Below are positions 3,184 to 31,099 of a DNA stretch of 64,000 nucleotides, piece after piece. The number at the start of each line of letters is the position of its first letter. The stretch's first letter is position 1. A program made the position numbers and the translations under genes. This DNA comes from Aurantiochytrium sp. KH105 (taxonomy: Eukaryota > Sar > Bigyra > Thraustochytrida > Thraustochytriidae): the NCBI GenBank assembly GCA_003116975.1, contig BGKB01000149.1, positions 1-64,000 on the forward strand, given 5' to 3'. The notes under the pieces are model-generated. The model worked only from the letters and a program-made list of their open reading frames with translations, was not told the origin of the DNA and ran no database searches.

Positions 3184-3232
3184 AAAAAATCAGGAGCTCG
3201 AGCGGAACTCGAACTCCTGATCCTATCTTAGT
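3184..3232 (-). other. tRNA 3'-flank element with hairpin and B-box-like core
   Basis: Immediately 3' of tRNA copy 3 (minus strand) the sequence contains TCAGGAG ... CTCCTGA arms enclosing GTTCGAGTTCC, which is close to a Pol III B-box, and then a T-run. The first half (AGGATCAGGAGTTCGA) recurs after copy 4 at about 3564-3580. It could be a degenerate T-arm of a duplicated tRNA or a trailer hairpin. No function is assigned. Confidence 0.4.
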
Positions 3233-3303
3233 AGCGGGTGGCGGTTTCGATCCGCCGACTTTGGGGTTATGGGCCCCACACTCTACCTCTGAGCTAACCC
3301 GCT
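3233..3303 (-). tRNA. Initiator tRNA-Met (CAU), intronless copy 3
   Basis: A 71-nt uninterrupted cloverleaf with the same mature sequence as the two intron-bearing copies. The A-box (TAGCTCAGAGG) and a B-box region with the initiator A54 type are present. On the minus strand a short hairpin-forming element lies just downstream, followed by T-runs at about 3176-3190. Confidence 0.95.
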
Positions 3304-3588
3304 TTCCGATGGAATGTCACAGCGCCATGGTTGGTTTTGGCTCTTGGTGTGACTTTCTGCTCATGCCAGACGCCTCGTCTGTCGCGCGCCAGCTGCTCGC
3401 TCATCCAGTGGCCAAGCACAGCAAAAAGAAAAGCAAGCCAGAAGCCGCGTGAAGACGATGTCGTACACGTGGCTATGGTCGCTGTCGAGAGCCACACAAA
3501 TTTTGCAGCGTTTAAGCAAAAAAAAAAAAGAGGAAAAAAATAAACCAGTTGCTGAAGGCGCGCTTCGAACTCCTGATCCTTTCTTTGT

Positions 3589-3659
3589 AGCGGGTGGCGG
3601 TTTCGATCCGCCGACTTTGGGGTTATGGGCCCCACACTCTACCTCTGAGCTAACCCGCT
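3589..3659 (-). tRNA. Initiator tRNA-Met (CAU), intronless copy 4
   Basis: A 71-nt uninterrupted cloverleaf identical to copy 3. Its minus-strand 3' flank starts with the same short element (AGGATCAGGAGTTCGA) found after copy 3 and then diverges before a T-run. This fits a local tandem duplication of the gene with some flank. Confidence 0.95.
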
Positions 3660-13600: not shown

Positions 13601-14773
13601 CAACAAGGGGCAGAACAAGTTGTACCTGGATCGTTTGATGACGATGACGATGATCCCTTTGCGTCTGGCCAAGTGAATCGAGGATTCGACCGCCAGGAGT
13701 CTGTGTCACAAATGCTGCTAGACTTCACACCTACCAATAAAATAGAGTCGAATTCTGCGACGAAACAAAAGAATGGGCATCACTGCAACGAGCCTACCTC
13801 GGTATCCTTTGTGCCAGCATCCCCAGGCTATGAAAGGCAGGAATCCGTTGCACAGATGCTTCTCGACTTTACGCCAGGAAAACCAGTGTCTGAACAGCCC
13901 CCTGTTGTCGCGGGCTCGCTTAGTGATGACGACGACGATGGTAGCGACGACACTGGTGACGACGACGACCCTTTTGCACCACCATCGAGCTCAAAGGGAT
14001 TTCAGCGGCAAGAATCTGTCTCTCAAATGCTACTTGAGATGGAACCCAAGGTTTCGCGCACCCGGAAGACAGCGCCCGTTACTGAAGAAGAAGGAGAGAA
14101 GTCTCAAACAAACGCAGGCTCTGCTACAAGCGAGACAAGTAGTTCGCATCGGCAGCCTGCATTCATTTCATCTGAAGCTGCGGTGCAAGTCTCGTTGACT
14201 GGTACAGTGGACCATGCCGCTCATCATCAAGATGCCTGGTCACAGACCTCGCAGCGACAGCTCTTGACAGCGAAATCACCCAAGAAGAAGGCCAACCATG
14301 AAGCAAAATCCTCTAGTGCTCGTCATTTGCATACGGAGAAGCAGCGACAGCAGCAACAGCAGAGCTCTTGTGGCGGGATTGGAAGGCCAATACAAGATTC
14401 GAGCGTGCTCACCAAGACGGAAGGCCTGAGTCTGAAGCTCGCGCAGCAAAAGACGGAAGGTGAGCTGCCGAGTATCGCGGGAACGTCGGTTGTTTCGCCA
14501 ACGGGTTCGGGACCGCGAGATATCATTTTTGGCGCCTCAACTGACATTGCACAGTCGCGGGAGAGTCGCATAGCCATGATGCAGGCCGGATACGAGGGCT
14601 CTCGCGCGATGAACGATCGATTCATCCCGGCCGTGCTGCGACGCCAGCTCGGACCGCAGCAGAACAAGGTTCCAAGCGAGCCACGGGCCCCGCGCAGACC
14701 CGACGCGCCCCCAGAGCTTTCTGCGAGCCGCGCGGCGGCGTCTCCGCGGGCGCGGCGACTCCGCGACTCTTGA
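10601..14773 (+). CDS. Large low-complexity protein with two short-motif repeat arrays (DPF/LLDF type)
   Basis: A 1,390-residue single-exon frame. Residues ~80-640 contain nine clear copies and one degenerate copy of a ~33-residue motif, consensus LQ(K/R)SMSQSAFGASRANLFD followed by xxSVIPSAxxQMG. From ~675 to ~1145 come ten copies of GFDRQESVSQMLLDFTP separated by polyQ and an acidic linker ending DDDDPFASG. I count eight DPF and eight LLDF cores. DPF is a known ligand for the AP-2 alpha appendage. LLDF approximates a clathrin box but lacks the final acidic residue. RQESVS and KSMS are RxxS-type phosphosites. No folded domain is seen. The C-terminus holds a short conserved-looking block (GYEGSRAMNDRFIPAVLRRQ). 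I infer an endocytic-type scaffold, unproven. Neighbouring repeats are nearly identical in DNA, so copy number is probably unstable. Confidence 0.85.
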   Translation: MSSTSAEVGALGIRKDAKNMFTKGKSMWKKTKFKLCAINEFSGAGADQQLCAETSNESKASEISVVGGDNTGKEPPRPVVLQRSMTNAGFCQSRSNLFDPSSVVSTGADSMYGSAQTSSSANNSSSPNKNMGKSPVALKRSMSTGQFGASRANLFDASTVVPSAAEQHGHIDPSIPDSPTKENKPSSWSGNSPPVALSRALSQSAFGSSRANLFDPNSVVPSASEQMGIMPANESASGVKRPRTGDVPVVLQRHMSQSRFGASRANLFDASSVIPSAVDQMGLHDVVDADTISRDAVATKPVSKPTKLQKSMSHSAFGASRANLFDVNSVIPSAADQMGVVGNATHALPPERKGSQNSGIVSSISNTSTTSSISKPIKLQKTMSQSAFGASRANLFDASSIIPSAAEQMGVVVNSTHALPPERKGSQSSGIVSSHSNTSTTSSISKPVKLQKSMSQSAFGASRANLFDATSIIPSAADQMGVIANNTSALPPSSSAKKTSSGSTLSKPIAMEKQLSKSHFGASRANLFDPASCMPSASEQMGLSAPIAQPSIAAASSNASQPVGLRREMSKSAFGMSRSNLFDPCSAMASASEQMGLATPNEAVAKRAGANKHRTPQSGPIARAQSVSVFLELGTDDPSQDMLAHSMSAGVKDENVIMHIGEEQVTEDDPFGSPPPGFDRQESVSQMLMSFDPTRRTVPVPVDQGSSSVASLEEDDTEHDIFGSPGFDRQESVSQMLLDFTPTQQKYKKDQIVPGSFDDDDDPFASGQVNRGFDRQESVSQMLLDFTPTKQQQQQQRAEQVVPGSFDDDDDPFASGQVNRGFDRQESVSQMLLDFTPTKQQQQQQRAEQVVPGSFDDDDDDDDPFASGEKSRGFDRQESVSQMLLDFTPTKQQQQKQRVEQVVPGSFDDDDDDDDDPFASGQVNRGFDRQESVSQMLLDFTPTKQQQQKQRVEQVVPGSFDDDDDNDDDPFASGQVNRGFDRQESVSQMLLDFTPTKQQQQQGAEQVVPGSFDDDDDDPFASGQVNRGFDRQESVSQMLLDFTPTNKIESNSATKQKNGHHCNEPTSVSFVPASPGYERQESVAQMLLDFTPGKPVSEQPPVVAGSLSDDDDDGSDDTGDDDDPFAPPSSSKGFQRQESVSQMLLEMEPKVSRTRKTAPVTEEEGEKSQTNAGSATSETSSSHRQPAFISSEAAVQVSLTGTVDHAAHHQDAWSQTSQRQLLTAKSPKKKANHEAKSSSARHLHTEKQRQQQQQSSCGGIGRPIQDSSVLTKTEGLSLKLAQQKTEGELPSIAGTSVVSPTGSGPRDIIFGASTDIAQSRESRIAMMQAGYEGSRAMNDRFIPAVLRRQLGPQQNKVPSEPRAPRRPDAPPELSASRAAASPRARRLRDS
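10839..12540 (+). repeat. Coding repeat array A (SMSQSAFGASRANLFD type)
   Basis: Nine clear repeats plus a degenerate tenth, with irregular spacers of about 25-60 residues. The invariant core is FGxSRxNLFD then PSAxxQMG. Copies 5-7 also share their spacers (THALPPERKGSQ), showing more recent duplication of motif plus spacer. Confidence 0.85.
12629..14060 (+). repeat. Coding repeat array B (GFDRQESVSQMLLDFTP type)
   Basis: Ten repeats of about 46-57 residues. Copies 2-7 are close to identical, differing mainly in the number of Gln and Asp codons, a sign of replication slippage. Copies 1, 8, 9 and 10 are more divergent, so the array probably grew from the middle. Confidence 0.85.
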
Positions 14774-15333
14774 TGTCCTCCTGCGTGTCAAGCTTGCTCC
14801 CCATCGCGTCCCGCCCGGCTTTCGCAAGACGCAGGCAGGCAGCAGTGGCATGGCCGCGCCTCTCTCCCGGTCGTGACGCTGCCTGCGCCGCCGGCCTCGC
14901 CGCCGTCGCCGTCGTCGCCGTCCTCGGCCGCGCCGGCGATGCGCGTTTACGATCCACGCTCTGCGGCGCCGGCGTCGCCCGGGGGGCGCGGCGCGAGTAT
15001 TTCCCCAAGTTTTGAAATTATGTTCCGTGTGTGATGAGACGAGGTTTCGAAAAGGGCCCCGGCCGCCCCAGCCTGCCCCCTCGGCGCAGAACGGCCGGAG
15101 GCACAGGCCGCCGCCAGAACCCCATCCGTCGCCCGCGCGAGCCTCGAGCCGCGACGCGACTCCGCGACGGACGCGACGGACGCGACGCCGCGACGCGACG
15201 CGACTCCGCGACGGACGCAGCTCCGGCCGCGCGCGCGCCTTGGCTGCAGCGCGGGGAGTCGAGAGAAGAGGAATTGAGGCTGGGCAGGCCAGAGCGGGTT
15301 CGGGCTCGGGTTTGAACTTGGAGCGCGAGCAAG
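14774..15333. other. GC-rich spacer, no gene recognised
   Basis: Very GC-rich with repeated CGCGACGGACG-type words at about 15160-15200. Long open frames here on both strands are Arg/Ala/Pro-rich composition artefacts. Confidence 0.45.
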
Positions 15334-16341
15334 ATGAAACCTTTTCGCCTCGTCGTGCGCGAGATCGAAGGCGAGGACAGGATGGAAGGCGCGGAGGACG
15401 ACCAGCGTGGGATACGGAGGGCGCAGGCTGAGCAGTGGCATCAGCGGCAAGAGCAGCAAGGGTTCCGCCTCCCGCCGCATCGCTTTGACCCGACGCCGAG
15501 TCGTCGTCGGGAGGATGTTGCGAGACGGGATGTCGAGCTTGGACGACAGGAAACGGAACATGAGTACCAGAGACAGCAACAGCAACAGCAGCAGCCGCAG
15601 CAGCAGCAGCAGCAAAGGGAGCAGCCACGCCAACAGCAGCAGCAGCAACAGCAGCAACAACAACAACATCGACTTCAGCAGAAACGTCGCGTGCGATTTG
15701 CTGATCGTGCAAATTCTCCAGCTCTTGATGATGATCAAGATGAAAGCCTCGTGGTGTATGCGGACCAGAACCAGAACCAGACAGCCTTGCCCAGAAGCTC
15801 GTTTGCGAGACAAGCCAACCCAGCGTTGCGAGGACTTGCGAGCGCGTCACCCATGTCGTCGCTTCGACAAGCCTTTGAGGAGCAAAGCACTCGTATCACG
15901 CAGCTGCAACGCGAGCTTCATGCAGAACGCCTGCGATCCGAACAGCTCGAGGCCGACCTCGAGGCGGCGGAACAAAAGGGCGAACGTCACCGGCAAGAAA
16001 CACAGGCACAGGCCGCGGAGCTAGGCCAGGTGCAGCGTGGACTCGTTCAAGCACAAGAAGAGAAATCATCCTTGGCAGACCGTTTCGACGATATGCAAAA
16101 AAGAGCCGTCAGTCTGCAATCAAGTCTGTGGCAAGTCAAGGACGAGAGGAAGAAGGACAAGATTGACATGACCCGCAAGTACGAGCGAGACAACGCGCTT
16201 CTCAAACACCACACAGAACTCGGTGCCCTCTTTGACGCTGCGCAGGGTAGCAGCGACACGACACTTTGCACGTGTTGGTGCCGAAAATGCTCTGGGCCGG
16301 GGAAAAGCCAAGATCGGGGACAAAGCCAGCGGGAACCATGA
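15334..16341 (+). CDS. PolyQ coiled-coil protein with RVRF motif
   Basis: A 335-residue protein. Residues ~80-118 are Gln-rich, encoded by CAG/CAA repeats. Immediately after comes KRRVRFAD, which fits the RVxF docking motif for protein phosphatase 1. Residues ~175-300 are a strong coiled coil (TRITQLQRELHAERLRSEQ; LEADLEAAEQKGERHRQE). The C-terminus contains CTCWCRKC, a small Cys cluster of unknown meaning. No named family. A PP1-targeting or cytoskeletal scaffold role is only inference from the short motif. Confidence 0.65.
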   Translation: MKPFRLVVREIEGEDRMEGAEDDQRGIRRAQAEQWHQRQEQQGFRLPPHRFDPTPSRRREDVARRDVELGRQETEHEYQRQQQQQQQPQQQQQQREQPRQQQQQQQQQQQQHRLQQKRRVRFADRANSPALDDDQDESLVVYADQNQNQTALPRSSFARQANPALRGLASASPMSSLRQAFEEQSTRITQLQRELHAERLRSEQLEADLEAAEQKGERHRQETQAQAAELGQVQRGLVQAQEEKSSLADRFDDMQKRAVSLQSSLWQVKDERKKDKIDMTRKYERDNALLKHHTELGALFDAAQGSSDTTLCTCWCRKCSGPGKSQDRGQSQREP

Positions 16342-16509
16342 AGCCATCTTTGGTTTCATCACCAAAGCACCAAGTTTGAGCACATGACATGCCAGACACA
16401 AGCTCCTCGTCCTGACATGAAAGAAAGCCTCCCGTCCCGTTTTCCATTTTCTCGCCCCCCAACGACCACCCCCCAAGAAGGAAGAAAAGAAAAGAAAAGA
16501 AAACGCGCG

Positions 16510-18351
16510 CTAAGGCATGTGCTGAACAAGGGTGGCGAGAATGCCCCATGAGGCGTCGATGAGCTCGAGGTAGGTACGCAGGCGCCACATTTCAAAGCTC
16601 TGGCGGTACGTGATGTAGTCGGTATCAACAATCTCTGAGGCCACGGGGAGATTGATGGCAAATGGCCCAAAGAGAGGCGTTTCAGTGTCCTGGCGGATGC
16701 GCTTCTCGTATTGAGCCTTGGATGGTTCCTGCACCAGGAGACCGCGTACGGCGGACTCGCCCATGATGCGGAAACGAAGACGACTCGTTCCTCCGAGCGC
16801 AAGATTGATGCCACGAACAATGTTGGTGGAACGCATGACAAAGAGCAAGTCGCGAGGCAAGCTCTCTAGGAACTTATTAATGTCACCGGCGTTGACGTCC
16901 TTGTACTTGTCCTTGAGTTTAGCGCGCTCCTCCTTGGAGATGCGGGCCCCTGTTTTGGTCATCGAGTCTGCGGGCCGATATGTGAAGATGAGCGAGAGAA
17001 CGTCGTAGGCGTCCTTGGACACGCCGAGGTTCATGGCTGCAGTGCGGCCAAGGTTTGCGTCGCGGAGCAGAAGCGCTTTCCAGAGCATGCAGTAGTTCTT
17101 ACGGAAGGAAGGATCTAATCTCCTGTACATGCCATGGTCCAATACAACAACCTGATACGGGACGCCCTGTTTGCCCCCAAAAGTCTTGACGCGCTGAGCT
17201 TTGTATGCGGCTACCAGAGACGAAAGTCCCCCAGCAGACGTGAGGGCTAGAGCAGCAAGAGGCGCCGCGGGACCGATAAGCGGCGCCGCATACAACGTCG
17301 ATGCGCCAGCAACGAGCAAGGAGACTGTCGAGACGAAGCCAAAGTTGGACCACACGGAGCGCTCGGGTGCCTTGCGCACGAAGAGATTGCCTGGATGCGG
17401 GTCGCAGTGCACAAAGCCGTGAACGTGAATCATGTCACCAAAGAGCGACGAGACCGTGGTGGCAACCTCGAGAGGGTGGATTCCTTGCGCAGCAAATTCA
17501 TCCACCTTGCTGATTTTGACGCCCTCAACGTATTCCATGATGAGCATGCGTCGCGAAGAGTGCTTCCAAATGATTTTTGGCACGTATACGTCGGCACGGT
17601 TCGCGAACATTTGGCCCAAACGTTCGCTGTTGCGCCCTTCTTGGATGAAATCGAGCTCGAGGGTCATGTTATCAGCAAACGCGGGGGTGAGCCACGAATA
17701 GGAAAAGTCAGGAAACCAGTACCCGACAAAATCGGTGAGCATGCGCAAGGTGGCAAGGTCGCCGCGTGTCTGCTCTCTGAGATATGGGTATTGAACCTTG
17801 ACGGCAACAGTTTCGCCCGTCTCTCTGAGCACGGCACGATGGACCTGGGCGAGAGAAGCAGATGCGATGGGCTCGGGGTCAAAGCTGGCAAAGACATCTT
17901 CCAGGGCGAGGGGACCGAGCTCAGCAGCTACGGTCTCGCGAGCCATCTCGCTGCTCATCGACTTTGCACGATCTTGGAGAGGTGCAAGAGTATCGGTAAT
18001 TTCTTGAGGAAGGACGTGGTTCATGCTGGCCACACCCTGCCCGTACTTCGTGTACAGACCTCCGTTTCGGTTGCACACTTTGTAGAGGCGTGCGGCAGCG
18101 CGAAGGCTAAAGGCATGAAGGGCCTCCTTGTAGGCGTCCTTGTCGATATCCTTGTCCTTGCCGTACATGGTCACTTTCCAGTCGACGGCGGTGACAAAGG
18201 CATTGAAGCACGTGCGCCCAAACCGCACGAGGCCGTCGCTCCCCTGCGAGGCCACGCGCACGGCCTCGCGCGCGTCTGCGTCCGTGGCACCCACGTAGGC
18301 CACGCCCAGGCCGCTGACGCCCACGGCGGTTGACGTGAGAGCGCGCAGCAT
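16510..18351 (-). CDS. ABC1/ADCK (UbiB-like) atypical kinase, ADCK1/MCP2-type
   Basis: A 613-residue protein from the Met at 18351; the upstream open frame is low-complexity and excluded. ADCK hallmarks in order: KYGQ (102-105) of the KxGQ helix, the Ala/Ser-rich nucleotide loop PIASASLAQVHRA (161-173), the beta-3 Lys in AVKVQYP (~185), ELDFIQE (~232), catalytic loop VHCDPHPGN (314-322), and metal site VVLDHG (402-407) with DHG rather than DFG. HCD plus DHG is typical of the ADCK1/ADCK5 branch, which acts in mitochondria in animals and yeast. A hydrophobic N-terminal stretch may target the organelle. Unusually, ~75 residues, mostly hydrophobic at 336-382, separate the catalytic loop from DHG, where relatives have about ten. 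Confidence 0.9.
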   Translation of the reverse strand: MLRALTSTAVGVSGLGVAYVGATDADAREAVRVASQGSDGLVRFGRTCFNAFVTAVDWKVTMYGKDKDIDKDAYKEALHAFSLRAAARLYKVCNRNGGLYTKYGQGVASMNHVLPQEITDTLAPLQDRAKSMSSEMARETVAAELGPLALEDVFASFDPEPIASASLAQVHRAVLRETGETVAVKVQYPYLREQTRGDLATLRMLTDFVGYWFPDFSYSWLTPAFADNMTLELDFIQEGRNSERLGQMFANRADVYVPKIIWKHSSRRMLIMEYVEGVKISKVDEFAAQGIHPLEVATTVSSLFGDMIHVHGFVHCDPHPGNLFVRKAPERSVWSNFGFVSTVSLLVAGASTLYAAPLIGPAAPLAALALTSAGGLSSLVAAYKAQRVKTFGGKQGVPYQVVVLDHGMYRRLDPSFRKNYCMLWKALLLRDANLGRTAAMNLGVSKDAYDVLSLIFTYRPADSMTKTGARISKEERAKLKDKYKDVNAGDINKFLESLPRDLLFVMRSTNIVRGINLALGGTSRLRFRIMGESAVRGLLVQEPSKAQYEKRIRQDTETPLFGPFAINLPVASEIVDTDYITYRQSFEMWRLRTYLELIDASWGILATLVQHMP

Positions 18352-19514
18352 CTTCGCCGCTTCTCCTCTCCCTCGCGCGCCAGGCCTCTGCGAGCTCGGC
18401 TCCGGCGCTCGCGCTCGCCCGCTCGCTCGCTCGCCCGCGCTGCGCCTGGCGCGGTCTCGGGTCTGCTGCGTCCAGAGTCGCCCGCAAGGCAGAGAGAGGC
18501 GCAGACACAGGAGACGGACGCGCGAAGGGAGGGAACAAGGGAAGCTGGGCCGACTCGGAGCAGCAGGTGAACGAGAACGTTCTGCCAGAAGTCTTGCAGT
18601 GCTTTGCATGCATGACGTGAGGACCGGCAAGAATGCGAAGCTCGCTTGGTCTTGGCGCGATTTGGGGGAAGACGTCGGTGGCGAGAAGATGAACGAGGAG
18701 GGTGTTGAAGCTGGACGGCCTAGGATAGCTAGGCCTACTGCGAGCTGCCCAGTCTGCGTGCTTGCGAAGGACCCTTTGGCAAGACAGGGGTATGTATGTA
18801 CCAGCTGGCTGCCACTGGTGAATGAATAGTAAAGAGCTTGCTCGCTCTTGAGCGAGTCATTGTGTGTCGGCTGGGGTCCTGCATCGCGCACGCAACCTGT
18901 TTCGCGCCGTCTTCAGCCCAAGTGTTTGACTTTGCTGCTCAAGTTGCCCATCGATCTCGTCCTCGACATGTTGCCTGTGACCGTGATTGCCATTGCCAAG
19001 GCGATGTGTCACGTTTTTCGCAGTACTACTTCGTAGGAGGGCCTACGCTGTTTATCGATGCACACGGCGGGTGTGTGCAAGCACGTGCAAACGTTCTCTA
19101 TGCCCCCCCCCCTTTCCCCTTTATAGTCAAGCAAGGTTCTGCGTGTGTGACGGGTTAGAGTAGGACGCAGCGAGAGAGCGAGCACGCGAGCAATCGATCG
19201 ATCGATCAACAAACCTCGAATCAAGCGACAGTCCGCTCGTGGTGGCGTCGAGGTAGTCCCGTCTGCCTGTCGTGCCTCCTGCCGTGCCTGCTGTACTGCC
19301 GTACGAAGGGCCCTGTTTGGTGCAACGTACGCCTTGCGCACGGAGGACTTGCGAAAAAAGCATTGCGAGGTCCGTCCCGGCGCGTGCTCTTCGCCAAACG
19401 CCGGCCAACTAGCCTTTAGTGTCCTTTGCCCAAATACTGGCCACCTCAACTCTCTTGCCCGCCCGCTCTGCCGCCATCGAAGAAGACAAGTCTGAAGAGA
19501 AACTTTCAGGGCGA
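18352..19514. other. Divergent intergenic region
   Basis: Spacer between the minus-strand ADCK gene and the plus-strand Roco gene, so both promoters probably lie here. It holds an (ATCG)n run at about 19193-19210 and a C-run at about 19106. No coding frame is supported. Confidence 0.5.
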
Positions 19515-22500
19515 TGTCCACCTTGGAACAAGAAGATGATCCAGTCGCAGACGCAGTCAAGGCGATGTCCGAGGGCGAAACTAGGCTCAGGTAGGTCCAC
19601 GAATATACACGCGCAAGACGACGAGAGAGACTGATTGACACTGACGACTGCATGCAATGTATACCGACGAAACGCGACCGTAACGTATTTGGGGAACTTG
19701 CCAACCTACAATATTCTCCGTGCTGCACAAGCGCAGTCTCTGGATGAACAAAATCGGCCCAAAGGGCGCCAAGGCGCTGGCTGGCGCGCTCAAGGAGAAC
19801 TCGTCGCTGCAGGAATTAAAGTAAGCCATGGTGAGAAAAGAAGAGATGCGCGCAAGGAACAAGAAGAACTGATCAAATCGCAATGAACTTATTCTACCAA
19901 ACCAATGCACGACGCCGCAACGGTTTCGTCTTTTGTCTCTTTCATGTATCGTTCTGCGCACGTTTGTTGTTTACTGCATTCTCCGTGCTGGACAAGCGCA
20001 GGCTCTGGGATAACAAAATCGGCTCAGAGGGCGCCAAGGCGCTGGCTGGCGCGCTCAAGGAGAACTCGTCGCTGCAGAGCTTGATGTAAGTCATGGTGAG
20101 AAAAGAAGAGATGCGCGCAAGGAACAAGAAGAACTGATCGAATCGCAATGAACTTATTCTACCAAACCAATGCACGGCGCCGCAACGGTTTCGTCTTTTG
20201 TCTCTTTCATGTATCATTGCTGCGCACGTTTGTTGTTCACTGCATTCTCCGTGCTGCACACGCGCAGCCTTAGTCGCAACGGAATCGTCTCAGATGGCGC
20301 CAAGGCGCTGGCTGGCGCGCTCAAGGAAAACTCGTCGCTGCAGATCTTGATGTAAGTCATGGTGAGAAAAGAAGAGATGCGCGCAAGGAACAAGAAGAAC
20401 TGATCAAATCGCAATGACCTTATTCTACCAAACCAATGCACGGCGCCGCAACGGTTTCGTCTTTTGTCTCTTTCATGTATCGTTGCTGCGCACGTTTGTT
20501 CTTCACTGCATTCTCCGTGCTGCACAAGCGTAGTCTTAGTCGCAACGAAATCGGCTCAGAGGGCGCCAAGGCGCTGGCTGGCGCGCTCAAGGAGAACTCG
20601 TCGCTGCAGGGCTTGATGTAAGTCATGGTGAGAAAAGAAGAGATGCGCGCAAGGAACAAAAAGAACTGATCAAATCACAATGACCTTATTCTATCAAACC
20701 AATGCACGGCGCCGCAACGGTTTCGTCTTTTGCCTCTTTCATGTATCTTTGTTGCACACGTTTGTTGTTCACTGCATTCTCCGTGCTGCACAAGCGCAGT
20801 CTTTCGTGGAACGAGATTGGCCCAGATGGCGCAAAAGCGCTGGCTGGCGCGCTCAAGGAAAACTCGTCGCTGCAGTACTTTAGGTAAGTCATGGTGAGAA
20901 AAGAAGAGATGCGCGCAACAAACAATAAAGACTGATCAAATCGCAATGAATCCATCACACGAAACCAATGCGCGGCACTGCAACGATTCGTCTTTTGTCT
21001 CTTTTGGGTATCTCTGCTGCGCACGGGTGTTGTTCACTGCATTCTCCGTGCTGCACAAGCGCAGTCTTGAGTGGAACGAGATCGGCCCAGATGGCGCCAA
21101 GGCGCTGGCTGGCGCGCTCAAGGAGAACTCGTCGCTGCAGGGCTTGATGTAAGTCATGGTGAGAAAAGAAGAGATGCGCGCAAGGAACAAGAAGAACTGA
21201 TCATATCGCAATGAACTTATTCTACCAAACCAATGTACGGCGCCGCAACGGTTTCGTCTTTTGTCTCTTTCATGTATCGTTGCTGCGCACTGCATTCTCC
21301 GTGCTGCACAAGCGCAGTCTTAGTCGCAACGAAATCGGCCCAGATGGCGCCAAGGCGCTGGCTGGCGCACTCAAGGAGAACACGTCGCTGCAGATCTTGA
21401 TGTAAGTCATGGTGAGAAAAGAAGAGATGCGCGCAAAGAACAAGAAGAACTGATCAAATCGCAATGAACTTATTCTACCAAACCAATGCACGGCGCCGCA
21501 ACGGTTTCGTCTTTCGTCTCTTTCATGTATCGTTCTGCGCACGTTTGTTGTGCACTGCATTCTCCGTGCTGCACAAGCGCAGTCTTAGTCGCAACGAAAT
21601 CGGCCCAAATGGCGCCAAGGCGCTGGCTGGCGCACTCAAGGAAAACTCGTCGCTGCAGAAATTTGAGTAAGTCATGGTGAGAAAAGAAGTGATGCGCGCA
21701 AGGAACAAGAAGAACTGATCAAATCGCAATGAACTTATTCTACCAAACCAATGCACGGCGCCGCAACGGTTTCGTCTTTTGACTCTTTCATGTATCGTTG
21801 CTGCGCACGTTTGTTGTTCACTGCATTCTCCGTGCTGCACAAGCGCAGTCTTGGATCGAATGATATCGGCCCAGATGGCGCCAAGGCGCTGGCTGGCGCA
21901 CTCAAGGAAAACACGTCGCTGCAGATCTTGATGTAAGTCATGGTGAGAAAAGAAGAAATGCGTTCAAGGAACAAGAAGAACTGATCAAATCGCAATGAAC
22001 TTATTCTACCAAACCAATGCACGGCGCCGCAACGGTTTCGTCTTTTGTCTCTTTCATGTATCGTTGCTGCGCACGTTTGTTGTTCACTGCATTCTCCGTG
22101 CTGCACAAGCGCAGTCTTAGTCGCAACGGAATCGGCCCAAAGGGCGCCAAGGCGCTGGCTGGCGCGCTCAAGGAAAACTCGTCGCTGCAGGAATTAAAGT
22201 AAGTCATGGTGAGAAAAGAAGAGATGCGCGCAAGGAACAAGGAGAACTGATCAAATCGCAATGAACTTATTCTACCAAACCAATGTACGGCGCCGCAACG
22301 GTTTCGTCTTTTGTCTCTTTCATGTATCATTGCTGCGCACGTTTGTTGTTCACTGCATTCTCCGTGCTGCACAAGCACAGTCTTAGTCGCAACGGAATCG
22401 GCCCAGATTGCGCCAAGGCGCTGGCTGGCGCACTAAAGGAAAACACGTCGCTGCAGGAATTACAGTAAGTCATGGTGAGAAAAGAAGAAATGCGCGCAAG

Positions 22501-25500
22501 GAACAAGAAGAACTGATCAAATCGCAATGAACTTATTCTACCAAACCAATGCACGGCGCCGCAACGGTTTCGTCTTTTGTCTCTTTCATGTATCGTTGCT
22601 GCGCACGTTTGTTGTTCACTGCATTCTCCGTGCTGCACAAGCGCAGTCTTAGTCGCAACGAAATCGGCACAGAGGGCGCCAAGGCGCTGGCTGGCGCACT
22701 CAAGGAGAACACGTCGCTGCAGAAACTTGAGTAAGTCATGGTGAGAAAAGAAGTGATGCGCGCAAGGAACAAGAAGAACTGATCAAATCGCAATGAACTT
22801 ATTCTACCAAACCAATGCACGGCGCCGCAACGGTTTCGTCTTTTGTCTCTTTCATGTATCGTTGCTGCGCACGTTTGTTGTTCACTGTATTCTCCGTGCT
22901 GCACAAGCGCAGTGTCTCGGATAACAAGATTGGCCCCGATGGCGCCAAGGCGCTGGCTGGCGCGCTCAAAGAAAACTCCTGTAGGCTAGAATGGCTAGAG
23001 TACGTCCGTCACAATAAGACCGATGCTGGAAAGGCGCCATTGAGTTTTTACTGACGTGAAATATGCCACAACTAAGGATTTTGGGAAACGATATCCGTGA
23101 TGAGGGTGCACAAGCTTTAGCCTCTGCACTTGAGACCAATGACATCCTTCGAGAGCTTTCGTACGTTTCGACAGCTCACAAAGCTCGAGCATTGTACAAT
23201 TGGCAAACTCTAACATGACTATCACCGAACAGTCTTTCCGAATATGAAGTCTCACCTGAGATTCTAGCTCGCATCAAGGGTCGGGTCGCGCGTGTGGAAA
23301 GCGAAGTACGCGATATCAGTGCAGCAGCACAAGAAGCACTCAAGGCCAACGAAAAGGTGCGCTGGGGTCGCGCAAAACTCATGGTCGTGGGCAATGCCGC
23401 TGCGGGCAAGACTTCGACGATCCGGACGCTTCTGAATCAGCCATTCAATCCGAGTCATGACTCGACGATTGGTGTGCAGCTCACTCTTATGCGCACACGC
23501 GACTGGAAAGAGCGCATGCATCTTGGTGACGCTGATCTCGGCGAGCAGTTTGCCAAATACAAATACCGCAGGCAAAGCGTTGTCAAGCGTGTCTCTCGAC
23601 GCATGTCTGAGCTTGGATCTCTAGTGTCTGAGTCGCGGGTGTCTGAGTCTCGGAAGTATGGGTCTCGGGTGTCTGAGTCTCAGGTGTCAGAGTCTCGGTT
23701 ATCTGAGACGCGAAAGTCTGTTAAACATCGTGCATCGATGCGGTTCAACGACGAGAACATTGCAAAGGCTAATCGCACATCGCTTCGCCTCCGAGTGAAG
23801 AAGCAAGCGGGGAAGCCAGACGAGGAAGTCAGCTTCACGATCTGGGACTATGGCGGCCAAGAGGTCTTTTATGCCTTGCACCATTTATTTCTGACACAAT
23901 ACGGCGTTTACGTGCTCGTTTTTGATATGCGCGAGGTGCTGGGCAAGGATCGTTTTGCGGAAGTTCTCAATGAGGAGGAGTTTGAGAACCTCGCGTCCCA
24001 AGAAGATGCTTTAAACACACTTCGTTTCTGGATTGACTCTATTCGTCTACACGCGCCGAGCGTCAACGTTGCGCTCGTGGGGACATACTTGGACCAGGTA
24101 CCAGACCCGAACGATCATGATGTGATTCACGAGACGCTAAAGGCCACGGTGCTGAAAGGCCTCGGTGGGAAGCCAGCTGTGGTTCGGAACAGCAAGGCAC
24201 GGCTTCACTTTTTCCCCATCGACAACACTGAGCGGCCAACACGGGCCGGCGCGAGCAAGCTCTCCGTCCAATCGAAAATTCTTAGAAAGCTTGGCTTCCG
24301 GCGAGCTACGGTTCAGAAGGAGGGAGCAATGGGTGGTGCATCTTTGATCGACAACGCTGATGGGAATGGTGTTGGCGCACGTGTTGCGGATCTTCGCACG
24401 GCCTTGTCAAAGTCTGTGGCAGACAAGGCCTTTATTAAGGACAGGGTTCCGTTGCGATGGTCTTACTGCCTGGACCACCTGCTTTCGCGAGACGAGGATC
24501 ACTTACCGCTGAATTTGGTGGAAAAAATTGCCGAAGATGACTGCCACATTTCCGGAGACGACGTACATAAGATGCTTAAGTACATGCATGAACTAGGCGT
24601 GCTAGTATATCTGACAACGGGCCAGAATGACGCGTTGCGCCAGATTGTGGTGATCCGCCCACAGTGGTTGCTGGACACGCTTTCGCGCGTCATTTGCGAT
24701 CCAGATGTGGGCCATATGAGAGAGCACAAGAAGAAACTGCTGTATCACACTGACGATGGCAATGAGGAGGAACTTCCGGTTGAGCTTGAGGATGCGCTCG
24801 ACGAGTGGGCAGACCGTGGAGTTGCAAGCCGTGATCTGCTGGAATGGCTATGGCAGCGTGAGCCGATCGACTACCTAACGGCTTTGATGAACTCAATGTT
24901 GCTGGCATGTCCGAGTCCCTGGATCGGAAATGGGGATGAAGAAGGCGCGCTCCTGATACCCAGTCTCTTGCGTGGTGTCGATGACGCTACCCGAGAGGAG
25001 GCTCTTCGTGGTCTGGGCGATCAACGTGCTTTAGCTTACATTGAGTTTGCGGTTCTCCCGCAAGGCGTTTTCCAGCGCCTCATTGCCAGCGTTGTGCAAA
25101 GTCTCCCCGTGGCAATTGCTGTTGGTCGGCATGGCGTCTTTTCGGACTTTGCAAGCATGGAGTTCGATGGCGTGGGCGTGATTTTGGAGACGAGTGGCAA
25201 CCGGGTAATGCTCTACTTTGAGAGACTAGCAGAAAGAAGCCTGACGAATCACGTCAGCATTCTCAAGCGGAGTCTGGAGACTATCAACTCGTCTTTCATG
25301 AAGGGTAATCTTGACCCAGAGCTTTTCGTCAGTTCCGACGGTACAGATCGCGAGACCGCTTGCGCGTCGGTGCGAGCAATCGACCAAGCTATCGACCAAG
25401 CCGCAAGCGACGTTACTTCGCGTGGCCTCAGAACGCTGCCTTTGACATCGTTTGCACTCTTCATCGAGAGCAGCGAAGCGGCAAAGTTTTTGCTTAGCTC

Positions 25501-25990
25501 CGACAGGCCGTTTGACGTTTTCCTGTCGCATGCTTGGGGCGAAGACAATGAGACGCATCGAAAAGTGAAAGCCGTGGCTGACGCTCTCGAGGGTCGCGGC
25601 ATCAAGTGCTGGCTCGACGAGTCGAATATTGGGTCGGATGTTCTCAAGTCAATGGCTGATGGCATCGATCAGTCCAAAGCGGTTGTCGTCTTTGTGACAC
25701 AAACGTACATGGACAACGTCAACAAGGAGAGGACGATACCAGACAATTGCCGCACGGAGTTTTACCACGCGTTGCACACGCACGGGCCGGCCAACATGAT
25801 TCCGTGCGTACTGGAGCCCGGCTTGGACTCGACACACTCATGGACGGGAGTTTTTCATGCCGGCTGGAGTGGCGAGCCGCTGTTTGTCCGAATGTTGAAT
25901 GGCGCTGAGTCCTCGTCAGAGGTCGACGATCTTGTGTGGGCGATCCAGAAAGTTCTCGACTCGCAGGAAGACGCAGCGAGGTGTTCCTAG
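19515..25990 (+). CDS. LRR-Roc-COR-TIR protein (Roco GTPase with C-terminal TIR), 16 exons
   Basis: Exons: 19515-19591, 19737-19820, 20002-20085, 20268-20351, 20534-20617, 20800-20883, 21065-21148, 21318-21401, 21583-21666, 21849-21932, 22115-22198, 22381-22464, 22647-22730, 22913-22999, 23077-23160, 23233-25990. All introns are GT-AG and phase 2. The join gives 4,014 nt, 1,337 residues, with no internal stop. Residues 1-26 form a leader; 14 RI-type LRRs of 28 residues follow (LSRNEIGPDGAKALAGALKE type). Roc: P-loop GNAAAGKTS (472-480), WDYGGQ (623-628), VGTYLDQ (~700). COR spans about 800-1165. TIR starts at FDVFLSHAW (1179) and continues GIKCWLDESNIGSD; Glu1261 in NCRTEF sits at the NADase-Glu position. 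Family knowledge suggests a nucleotide-switched sensor whose TIR signals or cleaves NAD+. The ligand is unknown. Exon 1 is supported by Met, phase and LRR continuity only. Confidence 0.9.
19737..22999 (+). repeat. Tandem exon-intron units of the Roco LRR region (~266 bp each)
   Basis: Thirteen consecutive LRR exons (twelve of 84 nt and a final one of 87 nt) are separated by introns of 181-182 nt, except one of 169 nt (21149-21317) that lost about 13 nt near its 3' end. Intron sequence is nearly as conserved as exon sequence throughout: GTAAGTCATGG at the donor, CACAAGCGCAG at most acceptors. The first LRR follows a 145-nt intron that shares only the 3' part of the unit. The last LRR exon (23077-23160) has unrelated flanking introns of 77 and 72 nt and probably marks the ancestral end. 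Confidence 0.95.
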
Positions 25991-27031
25991 ACAGGCCTTT
26001 TGAGGAGGCCGGGGCGAAGGCTGAAGGCCCGGGTCTCCCCGGCCAAGCTCAAGATTTAGAGAAAAGACCAAGATTAAGACAAACGACCAAGATTATGACA
26101 AAAGACCAAGACCAAACCAAGACTAAGACCAAGATCAGCTTAAGACTAAGACCAAGACCAACACCAAAGCAGAAGAAATATGTTACAACTTTTTCTTTCT
26201 CACCCCCCTTCAAGTCTAGTTATCGTTCGCACCAACACTCATCCCGCTCCTTGAGCGCGGACCTTTCTTCCCCCCCCCCCCTCTGCGTACTCCACCACCT
26301 TGCCCCTTCACCACTCTCTCCCTCCTCCACTTACCCTTCGCCTCCTCCTTCTCCCGCGCTCTCTGCGCAACCCTTTTTTCCCCTCCGTGTGCGCAACCCC
26401 TTTCGTGCCCTAACCCTAGCTCCCGGTGCGGCGCGCGGGGTGTCCGGGGAACGCGGGGCTCCTCTGCCCCGAGGCATTGCGTGGCTGCGGCGGGGCGGCT
26501 GCTTGCAAGTGCAGAATGGCGGGTTGCAAGTGGAGAATGGCGGCGTGCAAGGGGCCCCCCGCGGCGCCACACAGGGCGGGCAAGGGGCGCAGCAGGGAGA
26601 AGGCGCGCAAGCAGGCGCAGAGAGAGAGCGCGCAGACCAGACCCCGGAGCAGAGCGGCAGAGCGGCAGCCGAGGTAGGTGCGGCCGGCAGGAGCGCGGCG
26701 GGCGCGCGGCGGGCGCGGGCGCGCGGCGGGAGGCCGGAGCCCGCGCGAGATCGGGACGGCCCGCGGCGACGTGCGCGAAGCGGCGGAGAGCGGCCTCGCG
26801 AGATGGATGGGTGGATGGAGGCGGATGGAATGGATGAGCACGCCAGGGCCAGCCAGCCAGCCAGCCAGCCAGCCAAGCTTGGCGCGACGGCTGGCCGGCC
26901 GGCAGGGCAGGGCGAGGGAGGGAGGAGGAGACGCGGAGAAAGCAGGAAGGGAGAGGCTGACGATTGAGGACGTGCTTGATGGAACGATTGAACAGGTTTT
27001 AGTACCGTAGGAAAGGAAGCGGCTCGTCAAA
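25991..27031. other. Intergenic with imperfect ACCAAG-type repeats; 5' region of eL34
   Basis: About 26050-26170 carries many imperfect copies of an AAGACCAAG-like word. A CT-rich tract follows (26200-26400), then a very GC-rich region with GGCGGGCG words and CCAG repeats at about 26855. An open frame across much of it is repeat-derived. The 3' part is the probable promoter and 5' UTR of the eL34 gene. Confidence 0.5.
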
Positions 27032-27382
27032 ATGACCAAGGACATCCGTATCACATACCGCCGGCGGCATGCGTACCGCACGCGGTCCAACAAGGTCAAG
27101 GCCGTGAAGACCCCCGGTGGCCGCCTGGTCGCCAAGTACATCGCCAAGCGCGGCTCCGTCCCCAAGTGCGGTGACTGCAAGGTCGAGCTCAAGGGCCTCA
27201 AGGCCATCCGCCCCAAGGACCTCCAGAAGGTCTCCCAGCGCCAGAAGACTGTCACCCGTGCCTACGGTGGCTCCCGCTGCGCCCAGTGCGTCCGCAACCG
27301 CATCGTCCGCGCCTTTTTGATTGAGGAGCAGAAGATTGTCAAGCGGGTTGTCGCCCAGCGACAGCAGAAGAGCAAGAAGTAA
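27032..27382 (+). CDS. RPL34: 60S ribosomal protein eL34
   Basis: A 116-residue cytosolic ribosomal protein. The N-terminus ITYRRRHAYRTRSNKV and the internal RAYGGSRCAQCVRNRIVRAF, then LIEEQKIV, match eL34 strongly. The zinc-type Cys pairs are CGDC (about 46-49) and CAQC (about 83-86). The length equals that of usual eL34 proteins. The start context (TCAAAATGACC) is favourable. The extended basic start MTKDI replaces the usual short leader. Strong C-ending codon preference fits a highly expressed gene. Confidence 0.97.
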   Translation: MTKDIRITYRRRHAYRTRSNKVKAVKTPGGRLVAKYIAKRGSVPKCGDCKVELKGLKAIRPKDLQKVSQRQKTVTRAYGGSRCAQCVRNRIVRAFLIEEQKIVKRVVAQRQQKSKK

Positions 27383-27672
27383 GCCTTTTATTACTTTGCC
27401 TGCTATTGTTTCTCGGTTTGTTTCTTTCCACATTCCTTTTCTCCTGTTCGTTTTCTACTCGCTAGGGTCTATAAATTGCCATGTCTGCGCATGGCGCTCG
27501 CGCGCTCGCTTGCCAGGCCTTTTTGGTTGGGCTCAAGCAGCAGACAATCGAACAGACCCTCGTGCCCTTTGCGTCCTTGTCAGTGTTCAAACTCACGCTC
27601 ATTTCCAAATCCTGTCAGTGCGTGACTTTTTCTTGCTTGTATGCCCGCTTTTTGCGCGAGCGAACACGCTCA

Positions 27673-30237
27673 TCATGATGATTGACCACCGTCCGCTGGG
27701 CTCGCTTGCGCAGATTCATCTTGCCGAGACTCAGTCGCTTGCGCAGATTCATCTTGGTGAGACTCAGTCGCTTGCGCAGATTCATCTTGCCGAGACTCAG
27801 CCGCTTGCGCAGCTGTGCCAGACTCGACTTCCTTGCTTGATGAATCCGATGCAGATCCCTGCTTCGCAACCAGTTGCTCCGGCCTGGGCAGTACCGGAAG
27901 CGATTCGATTAACTGCGTCACGCGTCTCTTTTCCTCGGGTACTTTGTCGGTCATTTCCTGCAACTGGTTGGAAAGTTTGTGAATCATGGCTAAAAGCTGA
28001 GCCGTGGTGGGGTCTGCTGCTGCTGCAGCAGCATTCACCTTGCTCGCCTTGGGCCGCAAACACGCCAAATCGATTTCACCATCGGCGTCGAGGTTCAGAA
28101 TCGTATTGTGCGAAATGCTTCCTGTGCCTGTCTCAGGGCTCACCTGACCACCCTTGGAACGTTGCCGCTTTCTCATTACTGAAGCACTCTTGGCCACCAT
28201 GGCAGCACCCTCGATGGACAACCTTGCGCTACGTCGACGCCCCAAGATGGACTCTGCTTCGAGCTCGTACGGAGTTTCCTCCTTGATGGCGTTCTTCCCT
28301 GAGTTCGGAGGGGGCACCGTCGCCCCCTGAGGCTCTTGGCTCATCGCTGCTTTCGCGGCACTCGTCAAAGTGGTGGCGCTATGGCGAAATGAATTTCCTG
28401 AAGATCTTCGCTCGTCCTGTTCGTCGGTATAATCGCTCTCGTACGTGCTTTCCGCCTGACTCTCTGGAATTGCCGAACATTGTGACCCGGAACGACTACT
28501 TTGTCGCAAGCGCTGTCGTTGCACATTCTTTTCGACATTCGCAGAGTTCTGTTCGCGCTGCTTGGCTTCGTTTGCTAAAAGAGCAGCATCCTCTGGAAAA
28601 TTGAGCAGGATGGCCTCAAAGTCCTTCTTGTACAAAACGTTCAAGTGCGAGTACGTAAAGGACCGGACCGTTGCGGTGCGCCTCGAGTTCGTCTTGAGAA
28701 GAGCAATTTCGCCAAAAAAGCTGCCCTCGGACAGCACAGTATAAAGTACCGTCTCGGTCTTGTTCATTGCCTGCACCGTGCCCTTTACGACAAAGTACAT
28801 TTCGTCACCAATTTCCCCATGTTTGATAATGTAGTCGCCAGGCAGATAGAGTTGTTGCTGCAGCTTCATAATGATGGCATGCACAAAGGCACGATCTGCG
28901 ACTCGGAAGATGGGCACGGAAGCAATGAGGTTTTCGTTGACTTGAATGGCCGCTTCTTCGTGGTACCCCTTGCTGAGATCTTCAAGCCAGCGGAAATTCT
29001 TGTCTTCTCCACCGTTCACAGCCCATGAAAACGCATAGTAATTGGTGATGCGCTTTTGCAAGTCCGGACTGATACCCATCTGCAGCATCGAATCGTTTAC
29101 CTCTTCCATCTTGGCGCGCCACTTGGTCACCTTGGCATTGCCCTGCTGAATCAAATGTGTGACTTGACCCACCACGGTGGCCGTAAAGAAGAGACCCAGC
29201 ACGTTGACAAACAAAGCATAGAGACGCTCCGCGGTACATGTCGGATCTCCCTTGCCCAAAATGTATACGGTAGCGTAGTGCAGATACACGACATATCGAA
29301 CAAAGTAAGCGTTCTTAATGTCGCACTCCGTACTCGAGGCGCTGTCGCACTCAAAGTTATGATACTCGCCAATGGCCGTGTCTTGATAGAATCGAGATGA
29401 TTCCGTCTGACACGCAATAAAGAGAAGTACTGTGAGCACCTGGATCAGGATGAAGAGATACGAAAGAAGAGTGGCCGCGTTCCCTACGGCCGGGTACTTT
29501 ACAAACCCGATTCTTCGTGTCCGGATGGCCTCGCGCAGAAACTTTACAAAGACAATTGTGAGCTGGAGCATGTCAATTTTGCCCGGCATGTGCTTTTCCT
29601 CTCGGTTCCATGAAAGCTCAAAGTCGGCGCTGAGACGTTCTTTGGTCTGGTACGCGGAAAACGGTAACGCCGCCAGAAAATCAACAACAAACCATGTTTC
29701 AAGATAGTTCCTGGCAATGAGCATGTGGTCCGTCACGTCGTTGCCTGTCTGCGCCTGGTACGTGGAGTTAAAGCTAAACACGATATCGACCCAGAACACG
29801 AGATAGACCAGAGCCTGCAACACCTTGAAAGGAAGCTCCATAGTGTACCCAAAGGCTACAAAGGCCGGTGTGGACATGGCCGAGTAAAATGATGCAAAGG
29901 CGCAAATTCGGATCAGTGTACGGCGTGTGCTGCTGCGATGCGAGACGAGAAACCTTCGTAAAAGTGCTAGCTGTCGGGCACTGTTCCCATCGGTGCCAAT
30001 GCTCTCCAGCGAGGTCATGGCGCGTAATTTCAAAGGGTTGATGTCGGGAAACTCAAAGTACTGATACGTCTTGTACCCGTCAAAAGCCACCTTGATTTTC
30101 TCCTCGGGTGCTGTTGTCTCACTCGACCGTCGCCTCGCGATGCCCATGAGGGCCTTGTCGATGGTCGGCATGTGCACCATGCCGCGCATCTCATAGGCGA
30201 TGCTCCTGCGCCGCCCGCCACCGGAGACGCTCGACAT
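27673..30237 (-). CDS. Cyclic-nucleotide-binding-domain cation channel (CNG/EAG-like)
   Basis: An 854-residue protein. Several hydrophobic segments between about 105 and 365 fit S1-S6 (for example LPFKVLQALVYLVFWVDIVF and YLFILIQVLTVLLFIACQT). The pore region reads YATVYILGKGDPTCTAE, aligning with the TTIGxxPP/TVGYGD filter of CNG/Kv relatives but with GKGD. A C-linker follows (WRAKMEEVNDSML). The CNBD (about 450-570) has GDYIIKHGEIGDEMYFVVKG and the phosphate-binding cassette FFGEIALLKTNSRRTATVR, in which the Arg contacts cyclic nucleotide. The ~270-residue tail is disordered and ends in 11-residue ESRQDESAQAT repeats. Acts at a membrane; ion selectivity cannot be predicted. S4 has few regular basic residues, so voltage sensing may be weak. 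Confidence 0.88.
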   Translation of the reverse strand: MSSVSGGGRRRSIAYEMRGMVHMPTIDKALMGIARRRSSETTAPEEKIKVAFDGYKTYQYFEFPDINPLKLRAMTSLESIGTDGNSARQLALLRRFLVSHRSSTRRTLIRICAFASFYSAMSTPAFVAFGYTMELPFKVLQALVYLVFWVDIVFSFNSTYQAQTGNDVTDHMLIARNYLETWFVVDFLAALPFSAYQTKERLSADFELSWNREEKHMPGKIDMLQLTIVFVKFLREAIRTRRIGFVKYPAVGNAATLLSYLFILIQVLTVLLFIACQTESSRFYQDTAIGEYHNFECDSASSTECDIKNAYFVRYVVYLHYATVYILGKGDPTCTAERLYALFVNVLGLFFTATVVGQVTHLIQQGNAKVTKWRAKMEEVNDSMLQMGISPDLQKRITNYYAFSWAVNGGEDKNFRWLEDLSKGYHEEAAIQVNENLIASVPIFRVADRAFVHAIIMKLQQQLYLPGDYIIKHGEIGDEMYFVVKGTVQAMNKTETVLYTVLSEGSFFGEIALLKTNSRRTATVRSFTYSHLNVLYKKDFEAILLNFPEDAALLANEAKQREQNSANVEKNVQRQRLRQSSRSGSQCSAIPESQAESTYESDYTDEQDERRSSGNSFRHSATTLTSAAKAAMSQEPQGATVPPPNSGKNAIKEETPYELEAESILGRRRSARLSIEGAAMVAKSASVMRKRQRSKGGQVSPETGTGSISHNTILNLDADGEIDLACLRPKASKVNAAAAAADPTTAQLLAMIHKLSNQLQEMTDKVPEEKRRVTQLIESLPVLPRPEQLVAKQGSASDSSSKEVESGTAAQAAESRQDESAQATESHQDESAQATESRQDESAQASPADGGQSS
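27702..27800 (-). repeat. 33-bp tandem repeat in the channel C-terminus
   Basis: Three 33-bp units (27702-27734, 27735-27767, 27768-27800) plus a partial fourth encode the 11-residue repeat with core QDESAQATES. Units differ by only one or two bases, so copy number is likely polymorphic. Confidence 0.9.
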
Positions 30238-31099
30238 CGTGGCTAACTTGCCTCAGTCGAGCGCGCAGGCTTGCTCGCGCAAGACCCTGCCTCGTTTCGT
30301 GCTTGCATAAACGTTGTCCGTGCGTCCTGATTGGCAGCCTTTCCATGACGATGCCCTGCGCTCCTGCCGCGTACTATAGTAGAGATCCGTTGATGCCGGA
30401 CCTTTGTTACAAGAATCACGAAGACGCTGGCTTACACTCTAACCATAAATAATCCGTCTCTCTACATCTTGGGCGTCTCTCGGTGCGTCAGGTTTGTCTT
30501 CGCCACGTCATCGAGATATGCACGGGGTCTCATCGTACGTCGCGTTGCATCGCAGCGCATCGCATCGTATCGGACCGGATTCGATGCACTGTTCACTGAC
30601 GTTAACAATAGCCATAACACTCGATTGTAGCGCCAGGCCTAACGAGGCCGAACGCTAATGTGTGTGTAGCAGGACGGAGGGAGACAGCGTGGGAGCGAGC
30701 GATTCGTCAAATGCGGCTAGGTCTTGCGGCGGAATGGAGGCAGGCAGACAGGCAGGCAGACAGGCAGGAATGAAATGCTCCTCGAAATCGAGAATCAAAT
30801 CGAGCAAGTCATTTATGGCCGGCCTGTCTGGGAAGCAGAAGACATATCTGGCAATCGTCCTGCTCTTCGCGCGGCTTCTTCTGGCTGCACGCGACGGAGG
30901 CAGGCAGCATCGCAACGCAGCGGTGCTTGCAAGGCGGCGCTCCGCTCGGGTCGACTCGAGCAAAAAGTAAAAACTAAAATCATTGAAAAAAAATTATGAA
31001 TGACATGGTGAGAGTGGTGGCCCAATCCGGCAACATTCCGCCAACTCGGCAAGAGCCTCCTGCGCCAGCGAGAGCGAAAGGCGTGGCGACCGAGGCAAG
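30238..31099. other. Divergent intergenic region
   Basis: Lies between the channel gene (minus) and the carboxypeptidase gene (plus) and probably holds both promoters. Contains a short CAGACAGGCAGG repeat at about 30740-30770. No gene is supported. Confidence 0.5.

Follow-up and report, generated by a model that had tools for sequence, protein, structure and literature searches.

A thraustochytrid Roco GTPase with diversified LRR exon cassettes and a C-terminal TIR domain is a candidate recognition receptor

The first 64,000 nucleotides (hereafter the window) of contig BGKB01000149.1 (C149) of the marine, single-celled thraustochytrid Aurantiochytrium sp. KH105 carry, on the forward strand at 19514..25990, a gene whose predicted 1,337-residue product combines leucine-rich repeats (LRRs), a Roc GTPase domain, a COR domain and a C-terminal TIR domain in one chain. 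We infer that this product is probably a cytoplasmic Roco recognition receptor, in which the LRRs would face variable ligands, Roc-COR would act as a switch and the TIR domain would provide an output for defence or cell death; its sequence marks it out as a strong candidate receptor for immunity or self-recognition. The first-pass annotation of this DNA had read the protein as an LRR sensor, a nucleotide switch and a TIR output. That reading holds at the level of architecture, and the diversity of the LRR concave face described below provides independent support for a recognition role.

Domain searches and structure prediction, both proposed as checks in the first-pass annotation, agree with the domain chain. 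Pfam profiles match in the order LRR_6 (11 stretches), Roc, COR-A and TIR_2, all above cut-off: Roc scores 63.9 bits (cut-off 27), TIR_2 scores 62.4 (cut-off 28), and COR-A, directly after Roc, lies barely above its threshold (36.9 against 35.3). The motifs GNAAAGKTS, WDYGGQ and FDVFLSHAW, singled out earlier, are all three present. The Roc-COR tandem (23354..25468; COR-A match 24449-24715) is predicted to have an LRRK1/LRRK2-like fold, and the model of the TIR domain (25502..25987; TIR_2 match 25517-25837) matches known TIR structures. Roc contains the P-loop GNAAAGKTS (23390..23416), the switch II motif WDYGGQ (23843..23860), in which D205, G208 and Q209 are invariant among 41 sequences, and the G4-like motif GTYLDQ (24080..24097), in which G283, T284 and D287 are nearly invariant. 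A Ser/Glu-rich insertion within Roc (23627..23728; residues 132-165 of the exon-16 translation) has a low predicted local distance difference test score (pLDDT). Judged by its Roc motifs and COR domain, the protein belongs to the Roco (Roc-COR) GTPases; it does not belong to the NLR/TNL (STAND) proteins, having Roc-COR and no NB-ARC or NACHT match in the Pfam scan at E <= 0.01, with AAA_22 under its own cut-off. Alignment and model suggest that the TIR output is probably NAD-cleaving. The glutamate at the expected NADase catalytic position, in CRTEFYHAL (codon 25757..25759), is invariant in 14 sequences, and 44 of 46 aligned TIRs have E there. As E86 of the TIR segment it lies inside a helix spanning residues 82-94, consistent with the helix alphaC location of the glutamate in TIR NADases, and its place agrees with E642 of SARM1 by aligned range only, not residue by residue.

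The LRR region is built from near-identical genomic units. Exons 2-13 (19737..22730) are twelve 84-nt exons, each encoding one 28-residue LRR and each phase 2 at both ends, set in tandem units of about 266 bp: exons 2-7 at 19737-19820, 20002-20085, 20268-20351, 20534-20617, 20800-20883 and 21065-21148, and exons 8-13 at 21318-21401, 21583-21666, 21849-21932, 22115-22198, 22381-22464 and 22647-22730. Such symmetric exons would allow alternative splicing. The introns between them are 169-182 nt long; most are 94-99% similar to the query intron, and two fall lower, at 85% and 90%. This unit intron is matched in only four contigs (C149, C72, C52 and C156; 32 matches), whose arrays contain 34 84-nt exons, 33 of them distinct. 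Within the window array the units differ at 5.2% of intron sites and 15.4% of exon sites, and per-site diversity is 0.053 in the introns but 0.505 at codons 25, 27, 1, 2 and 4; in the remaining codons it is 0.149 at third positions and 0.042 at first and second positions. The five codons correspond to x positions of LxxLxLxxNx, which form the concave face of an LRR domain. They were picked after the exon and intron diversity had been seen, and the mostly fixed x codon 24 was left out; with all six x positions included the values are 0.60 vs. 0.11 in the window array, and the contrast is present in six of six arrays (permutation p 0.00005-0.00085).

Diversity is concentrated at concave-face sites, with high synonymous change alongside, and diversifying selection there is one possible reading. 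Several observations count against a purely selective origin of the pattern: at the five codons pS (synonymous) is close to pN (nonsynonymous) in the window array (0.46 vs. 0.51) and above it in the C41 array, and other third positions are more diverse than introns in the window (p 0.021) and in C72 (p 0.003). No such excess is seen in C52 (p 0.25) or C156 (p 0.84). Exon-block exchange or constrained introns may contribute. Along 19821-22912, the array introns are less diverse than the third positions of other exon codons (0.053 vs. 0.149). Adenine mutagenesis of the kind produced by diversity-generating retroelements was rejected as an explanation, the bases at concave codons of the window array being mixed (T 36, G 57, A 62, C 25); reverse transcriptase was not searched for. 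Counted with a pattern that needs a match at 8 or more of 13 consensus places, and which degenerate exons may escape, C156 has 8 LRR exons and the window 14; those of C72 are not countable because a run of N lies within the array. LRR number was expected to differ between presumed alleles but is equal in C69 and C138 (7 and 7) and in C5 and C21 (8 and 8).

A second line of evidence comes from the partner haplotype. Two haplotypes seem to be represented in the assembly (76.0 Mb, 367 contigs): a segment flanking the locus occurs exactly two times, and many Roc matches form equal-score pairs. In 500-bp bins, C149 and C72 are 97-100% identical over 27000-33000 and 98-99% over 16000-18000, vs. 72-97% over 18500-27000, where N on C72 hides part of the array; 13000-15500 is likewise lower (92-96%). 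Compared with three neighbours, the gene is unusually divergent between the two contigs: the Roc-COR-TIR exon has a nonsynonymous divergence (dN) of 0.033 and a synonymous divergence (dS) of 0.123, against 0.003 and 0.035 for an ABC1-like kinase, 0.004 and 0.024 for a cyclic-nucleotide channel, and 0 differences in 116 codons for a short ribosomal-protein gene. Old alleles kept by selection and conversion from paralogues would both explain this divergence. The TIR part alone (dN 0.022, dS 0.202) is under purifying selection. C156 carries a related segment, with the upstream gene at 92%, that is not clearly an allele, and C52 was ruled out as an allele lacking the gene, given its LRR-unit introns and an array that runs off the end of the contig.

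Taken together, we propose that the tandem LRR exons encode a horseshoe whose inner face would vary between units and, at this locus, between haplotypes. Going by the diversity pattern, this face would bind a variable ligand, either a pathogen molecule or a non-self marker. By analogy with the biochemistry of other Roco proteins, binding would alter which nucleotide Roc-COR carries and how it dimerises, making it a GTP-dependent switch; this could gather the TIR domains, which, from their fold and glutamate, might then cleave NAD+, or else produce a nucleotide signal, and so set off defence or cell death. The same molecule could instead be a self/non-self receptor for mating or colony compatibility rather than a pathogen sensor. 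Divergent haplotypes at one locus and many paralogues suit allorecognition as well as resistance genes, and a TIR output could produce incompatibility death; several sensor types fused to TIR in this genome nevertheless suit pathogen sensing somewhat better, and we consider the compatibility role the less likely one. It is more doubtful still that the protein serves in Roco stress or cytoskeletal signalling, with the TIR as a mere scaffold and the LRRs binding host proteins. The LRRK-like Roc-COR fold would suit such a role, and scaffold TIRs fit the TIR model equally well as catalytic ones, which also speaks against the receptor reading; a fixed host partner, however, would not predict a hypervariable concave face, and the glutamate is kept in nearly all aligned TIRs. 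Quite improbable, in our view, is an origin of the LRR diversity as a side effect of neutral turnover in the tandem repeats and of problems in assembling repeats. C52 does end within its array, the C72 array contains a 1,352-base run of N, and synonymous sites are raised too, but under neutral turnover introns and exons should be equally diverse and most codons should not be spared, whereas concave codons exceed introns in diversity in four of four related arrays.

The receptor reading also depends on the exon chain being one gene. Re-derived from the raw sequence, the 16 exons give 4,014 nt, or 1,337 codons plus a terminal stop, from an ATG at 19514 to a stop codon ending at 25990; all 15 introns are GT...AG and phase 2, and the sole stop is at the end of the chain. 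The LRR-Roc-COR-TIR frame of the first-pass annotation is thus rebuilt exactly, with its start moved from 19515 to 19514. Exon 1 (19514..19590) supplies the start codon and an N-terminal peptide and ends in phase 2; a pattern scan finds a near-identical counterpart of equal 77-nt length on C72, and P0003 and P0009 of the relative Hondaea fermentalgiana have a similar N-terminal peptide leading into LRRs. Exon 14 (22913..22999, 87 nt) and exon 15 (23077..23160, 84 nt) are the penultimate and last LRR exons, and such a pair, 155-164 nt apart, recurs in five of seven and four of four arrays in two array sets. Exon 16 (23233..25990) encodes a linker, Roc, COR, TIR and the stop. Its first Met is residue 50, only 3 residues ahead of the P-loop, and exon 16 without the upstream exons therefore cannot encode an intact G domain. 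On predicted splice sites, the first-pass observation is confirmed, and the joining of the LRR exons to the Roc-COR-TIR exon in one gene is supported. That array and exon are two separate genes is highly improbable: splice sites are inferred from sequence alone and the exon 1 pattern, matched in only 2 of the 12 sequences scanned, is absent from the other 10, a point against the gene model, yet the Roc exon lacks a start codon ahead of the P-loop region, the last LRR exons recur in paralogues, and Hondaea proteins carry the same domain chain.

The gene is one of many in this genome. We scored the best 150 of 381 Roc, 150 of 258 TIR and 82 of 239 COR-TIR candidates, so that the counts are lower bounds. 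Among 87 long-frame Roc matches, 66 are followed downstream on that strand, within 4 kb, by a TIR match of their own, 61 of them in a frame of equal length. A COR-TIR match overlaps 51 of the 66 pairs, whereas COR is unmatched in the other 15, which have Roc and TIR. All but two of the 26 best COR-TIR places fall outside those pairs, and in these 24 Roc was recognised by its motifs (22) or by a Roc match (C43 and C46). This amounts to at least 75 places that combine Roc, COR and TIR, and at least 90 that combine Roc and TIR, leaving out four fragment matches on C5, C2 and C21, one of them interrupted by a stop. Identity is at least 43% at the 26 best COR-TIR places, and LRR exon arrays lie upstream in 11 of 11 inspected, the window included. 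In a distant paralogue group, the one member inspected is a WD40-Roc-COR-TIR protein in a single 1,238-residue open frame (L061, C137:190600-194800, minus strand), a form shared by Hondaea P0015 and perhaps that of many distant paralogues. The assembly also has at least 150 TIR_2 matches above cut-off (the best 150 of 258 candidates), of which 65 are outside Roc-TIR places. Also in this genome are a TIR-NLR-like gene with TIR, a STAND-type NTPase (NPHP3_N) and then WD40 (L062, C51:45500-51500, minus strand), one with TIR, NPHP3_N and a winged-helix segment whose frame runs past the end of the examined segment (L063, C17:429000-435000, minus strand), and one that has ankyrin repeats and ends in a TIR (L064, C21:807000-810500, plus strand).

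The LRR-Roc-COR-TIR architecture is not unique to this strain, as judged from annotated Hondaea relatives. P0002, P0003, P0005 and P0007 (auto-named LRRK2, NOD2 etc.) have LRR, Roc, COR and TIR like the window gene, and match 96-100% of the Roc-COR-TIR query at 54-58% identity; the order was seen for P0002 and P0005, and all rest on automatic annotation only. In a tree of 48 sequences, in which several inner nodes are weakly supported, Hondaea members and those of the window genome are intermixed, with two family members separated from Hondaea proteins by almost no distance. The window gene's best Hondaea match is only 58-64%, and a close orthologue is not among the annotated Hondaea proteins matched; for the neighbouring cyclic-nucleotide channel, a Hondaea fermentalgiana protein reaches 99% identity over 91%. 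That identity and the near-zero tree distances put the source of the window at or very near Hondaea. P0004 is annotated with a kinase and a PH domain beside Roc, COR and TIR, possibly a gene-model fusion.

Among described systems, the brown-algal LRR-ROCO genes are close in design: the available part of that study (PMC11378527) reports one LRR per phase-2 exon, tandem arrays, ROC after the LRRs and selection on concave-face sites, as well as 72-nt exons, 23-residue LRRs and no TIR, vs. 84 nt, 28 residues and a C-terminal TIR here. On gene structure, the window gene works like these exon-shuffled genes yet is outside that group, its LRR and exon lengths being different. The same portion describes LRR-ROCO as the prevalent and most widely distributed Roco form, and the earlier statement that a kinase or other module usually terminates Roco proteins is too strong. 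Roc-COR and TIR also share a chain in the TPR-ROCO-TIR of Chondrus crispus, with different sensor repeats (PMC11378527), and in Aplysia proteins with an animal TLR/MyD88-like setting (PMC9334734); LRR exon cassettes go unmentioned for either in the available parts of these papers. LRRK1/LRRK2, the Chlorobium tepidum Roco and bacterial LRR-Roc-COR proteins have Roc-COR as here, but a kinase, EAD11 or no recognised output in place of TIR. Plant TIR-NLRs and the SARM1 and SPARTA TIR effectors have the TIR fold, the matching glutamate and the logic of sensor, switch and TIR, with a STAND or other switch instead of Roc-COR. In plant TNLs the TIR is N-terminal. Toll-like receptors have a transmembrane segment between LRR and TIR, where the window protein has Roc-COR.

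Roc-COR proteins occur in bacterial conflict systems, according to the parts available of two studies (PMC7159879, PMC8195603). A scan of genome contigs with the family alignment, using only two short patterns, gave 5 relatives among 53 pattern matches. Within that scan a bacterial source of the fusion found no support: in long frames at four of the five relatives, Pfam finds Roc and COR-A in 4/4, LRRs in 2/4, EAD11 in 1/4 and TIR in 0/4. One, from a Chitinophagales metagenome-assembled genome (L055, 96-3233), is an LRR-Roc-COR protein with the effector-associated domain EAD11 at its C-terminus. No paper on thraustochytrid Roco or TIR proteins was among the matches listed from the open-access literature, and the main text of a TIR atlas, as far as available (PMC13142454), has no mention of roc, stramenopile, thraustochytr or labyrinthul. 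The parts are already known, and the novelty therefore lies in their combination: diversifying LRR exon cassettes, a Roco switch and a TIR output, at many tens of places in a unicell.

More tentatively, this unicellular stramenopile may have a resistance-gene-like repertoire, in which one-exon LRR cassettes are exchanged and diversified at ligand-facing codons within near-identical intron frames, with a conserved Roco switch and TIR NADase as common output. If so, alleles or cells would differ in specificity, and a single-celled organism would independently parallel plant NLRs and lamprey variable lymphocyte receptors. Brown-algal work, in its available part, ties large ROCO repertoires to multicellularity and gives four or fewer ROCOs for unicellular SAR relatives (PMC11378527). 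At least 75 Roc-COR-TIR places in a unicell, counted in an assembly that probably comprises two haplotypes, together with the hypervariable LRR cassettes of the array studied, would call that link into question. This kind of organism is culturable, which would help in testing how a Roco switch controls TIR output, and Aurantiochytrium has known mirusviruses (PMC12911909, available part). Elsewhere in the window, two tandem tRNA-Met genes with equal scores lie on the minus strand at 3231-3303 and 3587-3659.
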